Shown here: positions 27,670 to 38,649 of the stretch, piece by piece
Layout: each line of letters starts with the position of its first letter
Position numbering within the stretch: position 1 is the first letter of the stretch
Source: Methanobacteriota archaeon
GTDB lineage: Archaea; Halobacteriota; Methanosarcinia; Methanosarcinales; Methanosarcinaceae
DNA length: 40,026 bases
Reading direction: 5' to 3'
Assembly: GCA_016841265.1 (NCBI GenBank)
Contig: JAENZL010000013.1
Span: 44,692 to 84,717 of the forward strand
Made by a program: the position numbers and the translations under genes
Notes under the pieces: generated by a model
What the model was told of the DNA's origin: nothing
Databases searched by the model: none
The model's input: only the letters and a program-made list of their open reading frames with translations

Positions 27670-27718
27670 AAGTTTGATACATGAAGAAAAAAATCCCGCA
27701 CTTAAAAGGGGGATCATA

Positions 27719-28516
27719 ATGTCCGAAATTGGTAAAAAGATACGCATAGAAAGGCTGATGAACCGGGAGAGCAGAAACATTGTCATCATTCCCATGGACC
27801 ATGGGATCTCCGACGGGCCTATAGAGGGACTGATCAACGTAACTGACACTGTAAACAAGGTGGCGGAAGGGGGAGCTAACGCCGTCCTTATGCAAAAGGG
27901 CATGGTCAGGTACGGACACAGGGGATACGGGCATGACATCGGGCTAATTGTCCATATCAGTGCATCTTCCGCCCTGAGCCCGGACCCGAACGCCAAGGTC
28001 CAGGTCTGCACCGTGGAAGAAGTTATGAAAATGGGAGCAGATGCCGTTTCCATGCACGTCAACATTGGGTCCGAAACCGAAACAGACCAGCTAGAACAAC
28101 TGGGGACTATTTCAAGGGACTGTGAAGAGTGGGGAATTCCCCTCCTTGCTATGATGTACCCAAGGGGCAAAAAGGTAATAAACCCACATGATCCTGAAAA
28201 TGTAGCCCATGCTGCCCGAATAGGGGCCGAACTGGGAGCAGACCTGATAAAGACCGTGTACACGGGAGACATAGACAGTTTCAGGAACGTAGTCCGGGGC
28301 TGCCCTATACCGGTGGTAATTGCCGGAGGCCCGAAAACCTCAACAGATAAGGAATTCCTTGAAATGATCGACGGGGCAATGGAAGCAGGTGCTCGCGGGG
28401 TTGCAATCGGGAGAAACGTCTTCCAGCATAAAGACCCGATCAGAATTACCCGGGCGATTAGTGAGATCGTACACGGGAGAAGACCGGTTGAAGAGGCCCT
28501 GGAACAACTGAAATGA
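27719..28516 (+). CDS. 2-amino-3,7-dideoxy-D-threo-hept-6-ulosonate (ADH) synthase
   Basis: First enzyme of the archaeal shikimate route. It condenses L-aspartate semialdehyde with 6-deoxy-5-ketofructose 1-phosphate, replacing DAHP synthase. It is a class I aldolase-fold enzyme of 265 residues. The Schiff-base Lys178 is in LIKTVYTGD, with Asp27 in [11 protein letters not shown] and Tyr147 in MMYPRGK, matching the MJ0400 active site. The ATG at 27719 has AGGGGGATC just before it; an upstream ATG at 27674 would add 15 residues and has no ribosome site. DHQ synthase II follows 99 nt later, which favours this function over fructose-bisphosphate aldolase. Confidence 0.93.
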
Positions 28517-28615: not shown

Positions 28616-29767
28616 TTGAAACTTTTGCAGAAAAAAAGTATCTGGATAAAAGCCGATGAAGGCAGATGGGAAGAGCAGAAGGATAGGATAACGACCGGCC
28701 TGGAATCAGGGGCCGACTGCGTGCTCGTAAACGGAAGCGACGTGGAGAAAGTCAGGGAACTTGGAAACATCAAGGTTGCAGCCTTTGCCCGAGATGGAAA
28801 AACCGGAGCTGACATCGTTGTCGTAGGAAAGAGGGGAGAAGGCGACGGGACAAAACCTCTTCCATCAGAAATTCCGGGTTCTTTTGATATAAACACGGCA
28901 ACCCTGCTAACAGACAAAGGACTCACTGTAGGGGGATATGTGCTAATAAAGGACAAGCACTACGAGCACTTTGCAACCGAACTCGGGAAGGTCTCCGACT
29001 ACCTGCTCGTCACGGGCACCGACTGGAAGGTCATCCCTCTCGAAAACCTTATTGCAGACCTGCAGCAGCAGAAAGTAAAAATCATTTTCGGGGTAAAGAG
29101 TGCAGAAGAAGCAAGACTCGCTTTCCAGACCCTTGAAAACGGGGCAGACGGCGTCCTTCTGGACAGCGGGGATCCGAATGAGATCAAAGAGACGGTTAAA
29201 GCCGCAAGGGAAATAGAAAGCGGAAGCACCGAACTTGAACCCGCAAAGGTCACAAAGGTCGAGCCTCTCGGGATGGGAGACAGGGTCTGCGTGGACACCT
29301 GTAACCTGATGCAGCCGGGAGAAGGAATGCTCATAGGCTCCCAGGCAAGCGGGATGTTCCTGGTAAACTCCGAATCCGAAGACAGCCCTTACGTGGCAGC
29401 CAGGCCCTTCAGGGTAAACGCGGGTGCCGTCCATTCATACCTTAAGATCGGGGAAAAAACCCGCTACCTCTCGGAACTCAGAACCGGAGACCCGGTTACC
29501 ATCGTGAACTCGAAAGGGGAACAGCGGGAAGGCATCGTTGGCAGGGTCAAAATCGAAAGCCGTCCCATGATGCTTATCGAAGCGAAAGCAAGGGACAGGA
29601 CCCTGACGGCAATCCTGCAAAATGCCGAGACCATCAAGCTGGTCGGAAAGGACGGGACCCCGATTTCCGTTGCCAAACTTAAAAAAGGCGATGAAGTCCT
29701 GGTCCGCCTGGAAGAAGGAGCCAGACATTTCGGGAAGAAGATAGAAGAAACGATTATTGAAAAGTAA
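28616..29767 (+). CDS. 3-dehydroquinate synthase II
   Basis: Oxidatively deaminates and cyclises the ADH synthase product to 3-dehydroquinate using NAD+. It replaces AroB in archaea lacking DAHP synthase. The 383 residues match the family throughout: KSIWIKADEGRWEEQK at the N-terminus, GADCVLVNGSDVEKV, VGGYVLIKDKHYE, and the beta-rich C-terminal half with GDRVCVDTCNLMQPGEGMLI and RPFRVNAGAVHSYL. The start is TTG 28616 with only a weak GGGG near it; no ATG exists in the N-terminal part. The 99-nt gap after ADH synthase is purine-rich. DHQ dehydratase follows 51 nt downstream. Confidence 0.94.
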   Translation: MKLLQKKSIWIKADEGRWEEQKDRITTGLESGADCVLVNGSDVEKVRELGNIKVAAFARDGKTGADIVVVGKRGEGDGTKPLPSEIPGSFDINTATLLTDKGLTVGGYVLIKDKHYEHFATELGKVSDYLLVTGTDWKVIPLENLIADLQQQKVKIIFGVKSAEEARLAFQTLENGADGVLLDSGDPNEIKETVKAAREIESGSTELEPAKVTKVEPLGMGDRVCVDTCNLMQPGEGMLIGSQASGMFLVNSESEDSPYVAARPFRVNAGAVHSYLKIGEKTRYLSELRTGDPVTIVNSKGEQREGIVGRVKIESRPMMLIEAKARDRTLTAILQNAETIKLVGKDGTPISVAKLKKGDEVLVRLEEGARHFGKKIEETIIEK

Positions 29768-29818: not shown

Positions 29819-30598
29819 ATGCAAGATTTATCCATGACACGCATAGGAAACTTCGATCTGGAAAAAAAAGCCGCAGTTGTAGCGGTAATCAATGATAGCC
29901 TCTCCCCTTTCGAGAATTCCAGGAAGGCAGCCGAAATGGGAGCCGATATCCTGGAGATCAGGCTGGACCTCCTGGAAATCCGGGATTCCGGACTTGCAGT
30001 GGAAACAATCGGAAAGATCAAAGCCGAAACCGGCCTGCCCCTGATACTTACAAACCGTTCCCGCGCTGAGGGGGGAAAATGGGAAGGAAGCGAAAAAGAC
30101 AGGATTGAAATCCTGAAAGAACTTCTGTTCACTTTTTCCAGGGAAAACGGTGTAGATGACATAGGCGCCGGAGATGCTGTGGATGCTGTAGATATCGAAC
30201 TTTCGGCAGGGGAAAAGGAAAGGACAGAGCTTATAAGCACTGCAAAAAAGCAGGGAAAAACCGTAATAGTTTCCTTTCACGACTTCTCAAAAACTCCTTC
30301 TTTTCAGGAAATGGAGAAAATTATTGAAGAGGCATTCCGGGCTGGGGCAGACATTGCCAAACTGGCAGTCATGCCCGGGTCCATGCAGGACATACTTGAC
30401 CTGCTCCAGCTTACCCTGAACGCCAGGGAAGCGAGGAGACCTGTGTGCACAATAGCAATGGGAAAGCTCGGGAAACACACAAGGGTCATTGCTCCTCTCT
30501 ACGGTTCGGTCCTCAGTTACTCCTCTGTGGAAAGCAGCGCAGCCCCGGGACAGCTGCAGGCAGATGAAGTAAAGAAAATGATGGAGCTGCTCGGATGA
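29819..30598 (+). CDS. aroD: 3-dehydroquinate dehydratase, type I
   Basis: Removes water from 3-dehydroquinate to give 3-dehydroshikimate by a Schiff-base mechanism. The 259 residues form the type I TIM barrel with Glu46 in EIRLD, His154 in VSFHDFSKTP and Schiff-base Lys181 in AKLAVMP. The insertion around residues 110-125 (DDIGAGDAVDAVDIEL) is rich in Asp and Ala. I use ATG 29819; ATG 29834 is an alternative that would remove five residues. Its stop overlaps the aroE start by four bases (ATGA), showing coupling. Confidence 0.95.
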   Translation: MQDLSMTRIGNFDLEKKAAVVAVINDSLSPFENSRKAAEMGADILEIRLDLLEIRDSGLAVETIGKIKAETGLPLILTNRSRAEGGKWEGSEKDRIEILKELLFTFSRENGVDDIGAGDAVDAVDIELSAGEKERTELISTAKKQGKTVIVSFHDFSKTPSFQEMEKIIEEAFRAGADIAKLAVMPGSMQDILDLLQLTLNAREARRPVCTIAMGKLGKHTRVIAPLYGSVLSYSSVESSAAPGQLQADEVKKMMELLG

Positions 30599-31434
30599 AA
30601 AAGGTATTCGGGGTATTCGGAGACCCGATCGAGCATTCCCTTTCCCCTGCCATGCACAACGCCGCATTTTCCGCTCTCGGAATGGACTGTGTCTACCACG
30701 CCTTCAAGGTGAAGCCGGAAAAGCTGGAAAATGCCATCCTCGGGGCCGAAGCCATGGGTTTCGGAGGTCTTAACCTGACCGTGCCCCTGAAAGAGGCAGC
30801 CCTGAAACTGGACTGCATCAAACCGGACCCCCTTGCAGTGGAAATCGGAGCCGTGAACACAATAGTGTTCAGGGACGGGGAAATCCTGGGCTACAACACC
30901 GACGGGCTCGGGGCAAGACAGGCACTCCTTGAAACTGCAGTGGAAATGGAAGGGTCTAAAGTCTTGATCGCAGGAGCGGGGGGTGCAGCAAGGGCCATAG
31001 CCTTCCAGCTTGCAGCCGACGGAGCCGGGGTCATAATCGCAAACCGGACCGAAGCCAGGGCAGTTGAACTTGCGGAGGATATCTCTGTAGCGAAACTCCC
31101 GGGAAAAGTCAAAGGTAAGGGGCTGCTTGAGCTGGGAACCCTCATCCGGGAAACAGATATCCTGATTAACACCACAACCCTCGGGATGCACCCTCACAGG
31201 GAGGCAAGCATCGCGGAAGCAGAAGACCTCCATCCGGACCTTACCGTTTTTGATATCGTTTACAACCCCCTGGAGACAAGGCTCCTGAGGGATGCAAAAG
31301 CCTCCGGGGCAAAAACAGTTAGTGGAGTCCTTATGCTTGTCTACCAGGGAGCTGAGGCTTTCAGGCTCTGGACAGGGGTGAAACCTCCGGTAGAACTTAT
31401 GAAAAAGACTGTTCTGGAGGCTCTGAAGGTTTGA
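30595..31434 (+). CDS. aroE: Shikimate dehydrogenase
   Basis: Reduces 3-dehydroshikimate to shikimate with NADPH. At 279 residues it is of standard length. Substrate residues are seen in GDPIEHSLSPAMHNAAF, the catalytic Lys66 in NLTVPLKE and the Asp in NTDGLGA. The cofactor motif is IAGAGGAARAIAF, and ANRTEARA after the second strand suggests NADP preference. It overlaps aroD by four bases, and its TGA overlaps the TTG start of the next gene (TTGA). The operon lacks shikimate kinase, EPSP synthase and chorismate synthase, which must be elsewhere. Confidence 0.96.
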   Translation: MKKVFGVFGDPIEHSLSPAMHNAAFSALGMDCVYHAFKVKPEKLENAILGAEAMGFGGLNLTVPLKEAALKLDCIKPDPLAVEIGAVNTIVFRDGEILGYNTDGLGARQALLETAVEMEGSKVLIAGAGGAARAIAFQLAADGAGVIIANRTEARAVELAEDISVAKLPGKVKGKGLLELGTLIRETDILINTTTLGMHPHREASIAEAEDLHPDLTVFDIVYNPLETRLLRDAKASGAKTVSGVLMLVYQGAEAFRLWTGVKPPVELMKKTVLEALKV

Positions 31435-32858
31435 AAAAGGAGCACGAAGTAAAACCGGAAAAAACACCTGAGAAAACGAAAGTCCTGATCCTTGGCGGGA
31501 CAGGGGAAATGGGACAATGGTTTACCCATTTTTTCGGGGAAAGAGGGTACGAAGTTACTGTATGGGGAAAAGGCGGAAAGGTGGAAATTGCCCGGAAAAT
31601 GGGAGTGCCTTTTGCAACTGACCTGGATTCCGAAATTTCCGGAAGCGACATAGTGATCGTGTCCGTGCCCATCAACGTAACGGAAGAAACGATTGCAGAA
31701 ACCGCTCCGAAGATGAAAGCAGGAAGCCTCCTCATGGACTTCACCTCCACCAAGGTTAAACCCGTGGAAGCCATGAAGAAATTCGCCCGCCCGGATGTTG
31801 AAGTCCTGGGGACTCACCCGATGTTTGGGCCGACAATCCCAAGCCTCAGAGGGCAGACCGTTATCCTGGTACCTGTGGAAGGGCGCTCGGAGAAATGGTT
31901 CCCGGTCATCAGGGAACTCTTTGAAGAAGGCGGAGCCCATGTGGAGGTCACCACGGCAGCCGAACACGACCGACTGGTTTCCGTAGTGCAGGGCTTAACC
32001 CATTTTGCTTATATCGGTATCGGGACAACCATTAACAGGCTTGATTTCGATGTCAGGAAGTCCAGAAAATTCGTCAGTCCCGTCTACGATATCATGCTGG
32101 ACTTCGTGGGTAGGATCCTGGGCCAGAACCCTTACCTCTACGCCCTGATCCAGATGGAAAACCCTAGTGTGATCGAGGTGCACGACGCGTTCCTGGCGGA
32201 ATGCAAACACCTTTCGGAAATGGTAAGGGAACACGACGAAGAAGGCTTTGTCAGAAAAATGAAAGCAGCATCCCTGAAATATGGGGACACCTCCCACGCC
32301 CTGCGCAGGTCCGACAAGCTGATCAACTCCCGGATAGTGGAATACGAGACAATCCTGAACTCCATCGGAAAGATCTGCGGTTTTTACCATGTTTACTCCG
32401 GAAAAACCCATGTAGGCCTGCTCGAAAAAGTTAAGCCTGACGAAGTGCTCCTTTCAAAACTGGTCTCAAAAGGAACTTCCCCCCACATCAAAAACAAATA
32501 CATCCGGCTAAAACTTGAAAACCTTCATCTCCTTTCCGAGACGGAACTTAGGGAATGGAGAAAAGAAAATCTGGAACACCCGGTAAGGGACATTGCAGTA
32601 CTCATCCCCGCAGGAGCAAAACCTGAAGTTATCCTGGGCGCGATTTGCACAAACGAGCACCTGGCAGTTTGCGAAATCAGCGACATCTATGAAGGCATCC
32701 GGGTGACTGATGCGGATGAAAAGAAAAGACTCGCTGTGACATACAGGATAACTATTTTTGGTGATTGTGATGCCGATGGAATAGAAAAAGAAATAACTGA
32801 ACTGCTCTGCGGACTGGGCTGCCGGATCAGGGAGAAAAACCTCCCGCAAAGGGAATGA
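31431..32858 (+). CDS. tyrA: Prephenate dehydrogenase with C-terminal FDX-ACB-like domain
   Basis: Converts prephenate to 4-hydroxyphenylpyruvate for tyrosine synthesis. The NAD-binding motif LILGGTGEMGQWF is at about 19-31, catalytic-site segments are THPMFGP and QGLTHFAYIGIG, and the TyrA core runs to about 285. A linker with a predicted helical SETELREWRKENLEHP stretch follows. Residues about 384-468 match the FDX-ACB fold pattern of phenylalanyl-tRNA synthetase beta chains: VRDIAVLIP, SDIYEG, KKRLAVTYRITI and GLGCRIR. No chorismate mutase domain is present. The start is TTG 31431, which overlaps the aroE stop; GGAGG ten bases earlier supports it. The extra domain may sense an aromatic amino acid, as ACT domains do in other TyrA proteins (inference). 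Confidence 0.9.
   Translation: MKKEHEVKPEKTPEKTKVLILGGTGEMGQWFTHFFGERGYEVTVWGKGGKVEIARKMGVPFATDLDSEISGSDIVIVSVPINVTEETIAETAPKMKAGSLLMDFTSTKVKPVEAMKKFARPDVEVLGTHPMFGPTIPSLRGQTVILVPVEGRSEKWFPVIRELFEEGGAHVEVTTAAEHDRLVSVVQGLTHFAYIGIGTTINRLDFDVRKSRKFVSPVYDIMLDFVGRILGQNPYLYALIQMENPSVIEVHDAFLAECKHLSEMVREHDEEGFVRKMKAASLKYGDTSHALRRSDKLINSRIVEYETILNSIGKICGFYHVYSGKTHVGLLEKVKPDEVLLSKLVSKGTSPHIKNKYIRLKLENLHLLSETELREWRKENLEHPVRDIAVLIPAGAKPEVILGAICTNEHLAVCEISDIYEGIRVTDADEKKRLAVTYRITIFGDCDADGIEKEITELLCGLGCRIREKNLPQRE
32580..32834 (+). other. FDX-ACB-like domain within tyrA
   Basis: This sub-region encodes residues 384-468 of the prephenate dehydrogenase. It keeps the order of conserved positions seen in the ferredoxin-fold anticodon-binding domain: Arg-Asp-Ile-Ala in strand 1, Asp-x-Tyr-x-Gly before strand 3, Leu-x-x-x-Tyr-Arg-Ile-Thr in strand 3, and a terminal Gly-x-x-Ile-Arg. 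The assignment is by pattern, not by alignment. Confidence 0.65.
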
Positions 32859-33261: not shown

Positions 33262-34905
33262 ATGTCCAGAACAAAATTGAAAATTCCACTTTTATTCATT
33301 TTCCTTGTTATGTTCGGGCTGTGCTCAGGCTGCGTGGGGAGTGAGAAGGGATTATTAAACATCAGTGCGGATGCTTCCGGAGTTGGGAATGAAACGAGCA
33401 TTGATGCAGCGTCTGCAGATATGGAGCAGAATAAGGAACAGGATGCAGAGCAGGGAAGTAAGAGTGCAAGCAATACAGGTGCAAACGAAACAGGTCTTGA
33501 AATCTCAAACGAAACCCGGATCTTAAATCTAATACAGGACCTGGAAAGCAGCAGCCATGAAACCCGGCTGGACACTGTTTCTGAACTGGGGGAAATCGGG
33601 GAACCTGCAGCTGATGCCCTGATTAAGAAACTCGGAGCCAAAGATTCAAAACCGGGAGACATGAACAATTACATTATCCTTGCCCTCCTTGAAACCGGGG
33701 ATGAGAGGGCTGCAGATGTTCTTATCCGAAGCCTGGATAAAGGTGAAGAACTTTTCGGGCAAAATGAAACGGAAAAATACGAAGGTGGGGAAATTTCAGA
33801 AGAGATGCTCCAGGCCGTGGAAGCAAAAGTTGAAACCCTGAGGAAATACCTTGCAGACTCCCTGGATGACGAATACGGGACAGAAGCCGATGCCCTTGTC
33901 CAGGCCCTGAATTCCAAAGAACAAGATGCCGATATTTATGTTAACATCGCCCTTTCGGAATACTCCGGCGAAGAAACCGGAGACAAAAACGAAACTGAAA
34001 GGCTGGTCCATGCCCTGAAAAGCGGAAAAGGTTCTATAAGAATTGCCGCAGCCCTGGCTCTTGGGGAACTGGAAGAGAAAAGCGCTGTGGAACCCATGCT
34101 TCAGATCCTGACCCGGGACTATCCCCTGCAAAGGAGCAGTGCAGCTCTTTCCCTCGGCATGATAGGCGATGAAAGGGCAGTAGAAACCCTGTTAAAGGAA
34201 CTGAAAGCCGATAAAGACAAAAACGTCAGGAGCGGCAGTGCCCTCGCCCTCGGAAAAATAGGGGAGGAAAGAGCCGTATCTCTCCTTATCCAGAGGCTTG
34301 GGGACAAGAAAGCCGATGTAAGGGGCAGTGCAGCCCTGTCCCTGGGGATGATCGGAGACGAAACGGCAGTGGAACCCCTTATAGAAGTCCTTGAAAGCGG
34401 AAAAGCTGCAGACGGAAGGGTAAAGAGTGTTCTGAATGCAAATCCGGAAGTCCGAAAGAGTGCCGTCCTGACCCTGGGAGAAATCGGATGCAAGGATGCC
34501 ACTGAAGTACTTATCAACGTGCTGGTCGACGAGGAAGAACCGCAGGAAGTCAGGAAAGCCGCAGCCCAGGCCCTAGGAGAAATAGGGGATCCCAGAGCCG
34601 TTGAAGCCCTTTCAGGAGTGCTTAACGACGCAGAAATACCCACCAGCATCACTGGCGGCGTCATTTCAGGTCTTGGGAATATGGGAGACAAAAAAGCTGC
34701 AGAAGCCCTTATCGAACAGATTGACGATACAAAGTTAGGAAGCGCTGTAAGAGATGCCCTTGCAGGAATGGGAGAAACGGCAGTAGGTCCACTTATCGAA
34801 ACTTTGGAAAGTGATGATGAAAAACTCAAAGAAGAAGTAGCCCTGCTCCTTATAGAAATTGGGGATGAAAGAGCTGTAGAACCTCTCACCAAAGCTTTTC
34901 GATGA
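33262..34905 (+). CDS. HEAT-repeat (PBS-lyase-like) lipoprotein
   Basis: A 547-residue exported protein. A hydrophobic signal (about 7-20) precedes a CSGC lipobox with Cys at about 24. A low-complexity Glu/Asn/Ser/Asp linker (about 30-85) follows. From about 90 to the end it is built of repeated helical pairs with motifs such as SAALSLGMIGDERAVETLL, SALALGKIGEERAVSLLIQ and QALGEIGDPRAVEALSGVL, as in PBS-lyase HEAT-like repeats. About 13 to 14 such repeats are visible. These form curved solenoids for protein binding. The ATG has AAAGGAAAG upstream. It is monocistronic. The ligand is unknown. Confidence 0.9.
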   Translation: MSRTKLKIPLLFIFLVMFGLCSGCVGSEKGLLNISADASGVGNETSIDAASADMEQNKEQDAEQGSKSASNTGANETGLEISNETRILNLIQDLESSSHETRLDTVSELGEIGEPAADALIKKLGAKDSKPGDMNNYIILALLETGDERAADVLIRSLDKGEELFGQNETEKYEGGEISEEMLQAVEAKVETLRKYLADSLDDEYGTEADALVQALNSKEQDADIYVNIALSEYSGEETGDKNETERLVHALKSGKGSIRIAAALALGELEEKSAVEPMLQILTRDYPLQRSSAALSLGMIGDERAVETLLKELKADKDKNVRSGSALALGKIGEERAVSLLIQRLGDKKADVRGSAALSLGMIGDETAVEPLIEVLESGKAADGRVKSVLNANPEVRKSAVLTLGEIGCKDATEVLINVLVDEEEPQEVRKAAAQALGEIGDPRAVEALSGVLNDAEIPTSITGGVISGLGNMGDKKAAEALIEQIDDTKLGSAVRDALAGMGETAVGPLIETLESDDEKLKEEVALLLIEIGDERAVEPLTKAFR

Positions 34906-37870: not shown

Positions 37871-37979
37871 GCCCCGAACTTAGCACCCTATTCGTAATAA
37901 AACCTCAGGGTCCGGCAAAAACTGAGACAAAAAAATAAAGATAAAAAAAATAATACGAGCAAAAGTAAAAAGGGTAAAG

Positions 37980-38114
37980 GTAAAAAGAACAAAGGTAAAA
38001 AGAACAAAGGTAAAAAGAACAAAGGTAAAAAGAACAAAGGTAAAAAGAACAAAGGTAAAAAGAACAAAGGTAAAAAGAACAAAGGTAAAAAGAACAAAGG
38101 TAAAAAGAACAAAG
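37980..38114. repeat. 15-nt tandem array next to tRNA-Cys
   Basis: Nine exact copies of GTAAAAAGAACAAAG, with degenerate copies on both sides. It begins about 12 nt past the 3' end of tRNA-Cys copy 1 when read on the minus strand, where each unit carries a run of five T. All three frames stay open because the period is a multiple of three, giving misleading Phe/Leu/Tyr-rich open frames. Confidence 0.97.
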
Positions 38115-38126
38115 GTAAAAAGGAAA

Positions 38127-38198
38127 AGCCAAGATCCGGATTCGAACCGGAATGGTATCGCTCTGCAGGCGATTGCGTAGCCGCTCCGCCATCTTGGC
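38127..38198 (-). tRNA. tRNA-Cys (GCA), copy 1
   Basis: Cloverleaf of 72 nt including discriminator U73, which is the Cys identity base. The acceptor stem is GCCAAGA/TCTTGGC with all seven pairs, the anticodon stem ATCGC/GCGAT with loop CTGCAGA, and the T-arm TCCGG-TTCGAAT-CCGGA. No CCA is encoded. A TATA box (38224-38237) lies about 33 nt upstream on the minus strand. Confidence 0.96.
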
Positions 38199-38223
38199 AC
38201 TTTGTGGAATCGCTTAAAGTACG

Positions 38224-38237
38224 TTATTATATATAAA
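38224..38237 (-). promoter_or_regulatory. TATA box of tRNA-Cys copy 1
   Basis: Minus-strand TTTATATATAATAA, centred about 33 nt before the tRNA. The same element stands at 38379-38392 before copy 2. Copy 3 has its own, different CTTATATATGAT at 38541-38552. Each tRNA can therefore be transcribed on its own. Confidence 0.7.
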
Positions 38238-38281
38238 TATTCAGATTATAAATTTTTACATTAATCCGAACAGAGAATAGA

Positions 38282-38353
38282 AGCCAAGGTCCGGATTCGA
38301 ACCGGAATGGTATCGCTCTGCAGGCGATTGCGTAGCCGCTCCGCCATCTTGGC
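38282..38353 (-). tRNA. tRNA-Cys (GCA), copy 2 (hybrid, one mismatch)
   Basis: Same as copy 1 except for one base in the 3' acceptor strand: GCCAAGA at the 5' side faces CCTTGGC at the 3' side. This leaves an A7-C66 mismatch at the base of the acceptor stem. The 5' half equals copy 1 and the 3' half equals copy 3. Promoter, T-arm, anticodon and U73 are intact, so it may still be functional. Confidence 0.93.
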
Positions 38354-38436
38354 ACTTTGTGGAATCGCTTAAAGTACGTTATTATATATAAATATTCAGA
38401 TTATAAATTTTTACATTAATCCGAACAGAGAATAGA

Positions 38437-38508
38437 AGCCAAGGTCCGGATTCGAACCGGAATGGTATCGCTCTGCAGGCGATTGCGTAGCCGCTCCGCC
38501 ACCTTGGC
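38437..38508 (-). tRNA. tRNA-Cys (GCA), copy 3
   Basis: As copy 1, but with a G7:C66 pair in place of A7:U66 (GCCAAGG/CCTTGGC), fully paired. The upstream flank differs from that of copies 1 and 2, with its own TATA string at 38541-38552. It is probably the oldest or outer copy of the series. Confidence 0.96.
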
Positions 38509-38649
38509 ATATCGGTAATGCAGGTTGCTTAAAGTACTCAATCATATATAAGTTTTTAGCTTGAGTTACCTGTTTTTTAAGGAAATTAACGATGTCGGGA
38601 TAGCTAAAAATTAAAAAGAAAAATCCCCTGAAAAGGAGATCGGCTTTCC

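Follow-up and report, generated by a model that had tools for sequence, protein, structure and literature searches.

Described TyrA extensions and the anticodon-binding domain of PheRS

Some prephenate dehydrogenases (TyrA) carry ACT domains for tyrosine feedback, similar in fold to FDX-ACB, the ferredoxin-fold anticodon-binding domain of phenylalanyl-tRNA synthetase (PheRS). The FDX-ACB domain of bacterial PheRS normally binds tRNA-Phe; archaeal PheRS works without it. The tRNAs with guanine at anticodon position 34 (G34) include tRNA-Tyr (anticodon GUA) and tRNA-Phe (anticodon GAA). In human mitochondrial PheRS, the G34 of tRNA-Phe stacks on Phe366, which corresponds to Tyr731 of the Thermus beta-chain, and forms hydrogen bonds with Asp364, Ser375 and Arg414; the D364G mutation abolishes charging, S375A retains 72% and R414A 32% of it, and anticodon positions 35 and 36 contribute little to PheRS (PMC7540514). 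A C-terminal extension of the archaeal TyrA proteins, named REG (COG4937) and presumed to be regulatory, was described in a 2005 survey of the TyrA family, in which the inhibition of the Methanococcus maripaludis prephenate dehydrogenase by tyrosine is also cited; the published account of TyrA-REG gives no fold, FDX-ACB relation or pocket (PMC1173090).

Through analysis of a DNA stretch of 40,026 nucleotides, hereafter the window, a TyrA of this type has been identified in a Methanosarcina-type archaeon. Its counterparts, the archaeal TyrA-REG proteins (COG4937; NCBIfam PRK08655.1-1, -2, -4 and -5), have the same enzyme and domain order, with a match of 454 residues, and all four of these PRK08655 subfamilies aligned full-length through the extension. 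In contrast to them, the window protein possesses an extra barrel loop and an alanine at a position of serine. With the FDX-ACB of PheRS-beta and mitochondrial PheRS, the REG domain has in common the fold, the RD motif of strand 1, the D-x-Y motif, the serine (in most relatives) and a C-terminal arginine. Unlike that domain, REG is joined to a metabolic enzyme, shows about 20% identity, scores below the Pfam cut-off, and lacks both a short stretch following strand 3 and the RTL...E motif that is invariant in PheRS. The Bacillus-type TyrA-ACT proteins also consist of a dehydrogenase core followed by a ferredoxin-like, likely regulatory C-terminal domain, but ACT is unrelated in sequence to REG, and to our knowledge no barrel lies between the core and the ACT domain.

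A first-pass annotation of the window left it open whether the fusion had been described. The extension itself is not new, having been described in 2005 as TyrA-REG/COG4937 (PMC1173090); its FDX-ACB identity was absent from the literature searched, in which no paper linked prephenate dehydrogenase with FDX-ACB, anticodon binding or PRK08655, or REG with FDX-ACB, and the Pfam and COG annotation pages may already note the relation. What is new here is the strong conservation in REG of the residues aligned with those reading G34 in PheRS (Asp, aromatic, Ser, Arg), which count among its most conserved.

The tyrA gene and its surroundings

The tyrA gene (31431..32858, + strand) begins with TTG at 31431 and ends with a stop at 32858, giving an open reading frame of 475 amino acids. 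The stop of aroE is overlapped by this TTG start, and a GGAGG sequence is present upstream of tyrA. The encoded protein matched the Pfam families PDH_N (1.8e-24) and PDH_C (1.6e-23), and NCBIfam NF006411 (PRK08655.1-5, TyrA-REG type) over residues 15-468 (454 residues) with 820 bits, a full-length match above the curated cut-off of 464. The first-pass annotation had placed a prephenate dehydrogenase at these positions, and both its coordinates and its identification were correct. The conserved histidine motifs of the catalytic region were found, close relatives are Methanosarcina TyrA proteins, and no PDH_N protein other than the window TyrA was found in the host genome.

Four genes of the + strand precede tyrA: a DeoC/LacD-family aldolase (27674..28516), which we take to be the archaeal first-step enzyme of the aromatic pathway, 3-dehydroquinate synthase II (28616..29767), aroD encoding a type I 3-dehydroquinase (29819..30598) and aroE encoding shikimate dehydrogenase (30595..31434). 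The prephenate dehydrogenase gene therefore closes an aromatic-pathway run. It is followed by a gene for a lipoprotein-like HEAT/PBS-lyase repeat protein (33262-34905). Further downstream, three tRNA-Cys (GCA) genes form a tandem array of 155-base units with 99% matches (38126-38509), adjoined by an array of 15-base repeats (37960-38122) that gives a spurious open reading frame of FTFVL repeats.

Architecture and predicted fold

The catalytic core of TyrA (residues about 12-300; 31464..32330, + strand) comprises the NAD(P)-binding and the helical dimerisation domains, with the conserved motifs GTHPMFG and QGLTHF. In the fold search it was matched by the Haemophilus TyrA 2pv7 (TMt 0.87). The core is followed by a predicted small five-strand beta-barrel (residues about 315-367; 32373..32531, + strand) with a conserved HVG motif. 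No Pfam family matched the barrel above its cut-off, and DUF7443 matched this region weakly in five relatives (best 5.7e-4). The REG domain itself covers residues 385-467 (32583..32831, + strand), and the barrel and this domain were always found together, in TyrA.

The AlphaFold2 model of the terminal domain has a beta-alpha-beta-beta-alpha-beta order with a mean pLDDT of 85.5, and in Foldseek the mitochondrial PheRS superposed on it at 3.2-3.8 A over 98 columns, which bears out the fold expected in the first-pass annotation. The alignments behind the models were shallow (19 and 23 sequences), so the arrangement of the domains is uncertain. In many Methanosarcina TyrA proteins (G148, G267, G326, G364, G388 and G410), insertions of variable length occur in the REG loop that joins strands 2 and 3; they cut the profile match in two and adjoin the putative pocket described below.

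Relationship of the terminal domain to FDX-ACB

The motifs from which an FDX-ACB-like domain had originally been proposed (VRDIAVLIP, SDIYEG, YRITI and GCRIR) were found at residues 385-467. Against PF03147, the window protein gave an E-value of 0.2 as a whole and 0.015 as a trimmed domain (12.6-16.1 bits), under the curated cut-off of 31.1 bits; this cut-off was reached by no Halobacteriota member tested, the best relative scoring 27.9 bits. Hence the domain is termed here an FDX-ACB homologue and not a formal Pfam member. Among 19 relatives, 15 matched FDX-ACB (best 7.8e-6). The best ten FDX-ACB matches in the phylum (197 genomes; E 8e-6 to 0.0015) were all TyrA C-termini.

Profile-profile comparison by hhalign of 18 REG domains with four PheRS-beta domains gave a probability of 95.5% (E 1.6e-8). 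As controls, 100 column shuffles reached at most 1.8%, the reversed profile 0.3%, and other TyrA segments at most 0.6% unless they overlapped the domain; on these controls a chance resemblance was rejected. ACT (PF01842) gave 1.7-2.5% against REG (1.7% for the ACT domains of the host), and tyrA was unmatched by ACT in a search of the host genome, so that an ACT identity was rejected as well. A search of PDB sequences with the extension profile returned no PheRS and no significant match; the case for homology is therefore built on the profile comparison, the Pfam matches and the predicted fold. Sequence profile and predicted fold together show the terminal domain of the extension to be a homologue of the PheRS-type FDX-ACB.

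A reading of the resemblance as chance, or as simple convergence on the ferredoxin fold, could point to the insignificant match of the window protein alone, to the sub-threshold scores of the Halobacteriota members tested and to the MscS channels, which took the best Foldseek E-values. The MscS-type matches, however, have a TM of about 0.25-0.32 and an rmsd above 10 A, and this likeness was judged to be topological only. Together with the family-wide matches, the controlled profile-profile score and the retained functional residues, this makes chance or convergence highly improbable. The relationship proposed in the first-pass annotation is thus supported by profile, predicted fold and key residues; the combination that it had named as contrary evidence, a missing FDX-ACB match together with another fold, did not occur.

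Putative G34 pocket

The residues reading G34 in PheRS were located in REG by global profile alignment; counting of residues in the Thermus PheRS chain places Tyr731 within FDLY and Ser742 within HKS. They align with D42, Y44, S54 and R86 of REG, which in the window protein are D418, Y420, A435 and R467. The D418-I419-Y420 segment (32682..32690, + strand) contains the counterparts of Asp364 and Phe366 (Thermus Asp729 and Tyr731), which pair with and stack on G34; A435 (32733..32735, + strand) is the counterpart of Ser375; R467 (32829..32831, + strand) is that of Arg414, the C-terminal arginine contacting G34. Three of the four G34-type residues (Asp, Tyr, Arg) are therefore present in the window protein, with alanine replacing the serine as the fourth. 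Local alignment was confident only to about strand 3, and so the arginine pairing, taken from the global alignment, is less secure than the other three.

In 116 distinct REG domains, aspartate occupies its column in 115, tyrosine or phenylalanine the aromatic one in all 116, and serine the third in 102 (88%); the terminal arginine is present in all 114 complete domains, and aspartate, aromatic residue and arginine co-occur in 113 of them. The four positions, which had been picked out in PheRS in advance, are among the most conserved of REG (rank-sum P about 0.0015). Other columns of this kind are R10 and D11, invariant or near-invariant and common to PheRS, and R58, likewise conserved but not in PheRS. 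By alignment and conservation, REG is thus shown to have kept a putative G34 pocket of PheRS, formed in the window protein by Asp418, Tyr420 and Arg467, with Ala435 for the usual serine.

In a set of TyrA proteins (L185-L188), called Methanocella-like on the presumption given by their place in the phylum, the domain is recognisable and all four pocket residues are replaced; the arginine of strand 1 and mostly the aspartate are kept. The fold thus does not need the pocket residues, and their conservation elsewhere points to a function that was lost or changed in the Methanocella-like lineage. REG is slightly acidic, with a median net charge of -3, as is the FDX-ACB of PheRS; net charge did not discriminate.

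Distribution in Halobacteriota and the PheRS of the host

Of 393 Halobacteriota genomes, 94 carried REG, essentially as a single copy within a frame of TyrA size; the exceptions were partial sequences where contigs end or break, and a single decayed fragment. The latter, an isolated 56-residue piece resembling the second half of REG (IIDSYTG...LSVTYRLTIVG...CGLRG; L198, 948-1118, - strand), lies in a related genome in which an intact TyrA-REG is present too, and is probably a decayed duplicate. In a sister family of the same class (f2), presumably the Methanotrichaceae, REG is absent and TyrA ends near residue 290-300. In Methanocaldococcus jannaschii an FDX-ACB match over the cut-off was present, which is probably its TyrA. 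An archaeal TyrA-REG with 52% identity to the query family was also located on a contig labelled Bacteroidales (L119), probably through a binning error.

The PheRS-beta of the host is of the archaeal 546-residue type and lacks FDX-ACB. The host genome gave no PF03147 match at E 0.001, and no second copy of the domain, in PheRS or elsewhere, was found there.

Possible function of the extension

The role of the domain had been suggested to be that of an aromatic amino acid sensor or of an RNA-binding regulator tied to tRNA charging. Of the two, the RNA-binding alternative has become more concrete than in that suggestion, as the residues that recognise G34 are conserved. The likeliest of the readings is that the pocket still binds a G34-type base, of tRNA-Tyr or tRNA-Phe, and regulates TyrA, although its chance is estimated as a little short of even. 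The full proposal, that archaeal TyrA senses tRNA through a PheRS-type domain, with the tRNA pool setting its activity allosterically, is put forward tentatively. The REG pocket would bind the anticodon G34, most plausibly of tRNA-Tyr or tRNA-Phe; pocket occupancy would alter TyrA activity, and tyrosine synthesis would then follow the tRNA state, instead of or besides free tyrosine. Since positions 35 and 36 contribute little in PheRS, additional contacts would be required to select among G34 tRNAs, and the barrel may, speculatively, provide them. The tRNA partner has to be assumed, because archaeal PheRS does not use the domain.

Several observations weigh against tRNA reading: the alanine at the serine position of the window protein, the acidity of REG (though shared by the PheRS domain), and the suitability of aspartate, aromatic residue and arginine for a free aromatic amino acid. 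The last of these leads to the main rival explanation, in which the FDX-ACB-derived domain now acts as an ACT-like allosteric site and the former G34 pocket holds free L-tyrosine for feedback inhibition, with the arginine facing the carboxylate, the aspartate the amine or hydroxyl, and the tyrosine stacked on the ring. The inhibition of the M. maripaludis enzyme by tyrosine fits such a site as well as it fits tRNA reading, but could also arise at the active site of TyrA. The proposed regulatory nature of the domain and the existence elsewhere of TyrA proteins with an ACT domain of similar fold, such as the Bacillus enzyme with bound tyrosine matched in the fold search, agree with this rival. 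Yet REG has no sequence relation to ACT, and its conserved residues are the guanine-recognising ones of its PheRS homologue; a tyrosine site is a real possibility, though somewhat less likely than tRNA reading.

It is unlikely that the extension is mainly structural, the barrel and the ferredoxin-fold domain stabilising a dimer or higher oligomer, or docking a partner enzyme, with no ligand. This explanation would account for the domain retained without its pocket in the Methanocella-like proteins, for the constant association of barrel and domain, and for the presumed Methanotrichaceae managing without the extension; it leaves unexplained why aspartate, aromatic residue and terminal arginine persist in nearly all complete domains at so low an identity to PheRS.

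Through the tRNA-sensing proposal, an archaeal regulatory domain that was uncharacterised since 2005 in the literature searched obtains a concrete identity and a candidate pocket. If the proposal holds, direct reading of tRNA by a biosynthetic enzyme, through an anticodon-binding domain, would link amino acid supply to translation in a manner unlike feedback by the free amino acid. A domain of the anticodon-reading type would thereby serve in a protein other than a tRNA synthetase, in organisms that have a PheRS devoid of it.
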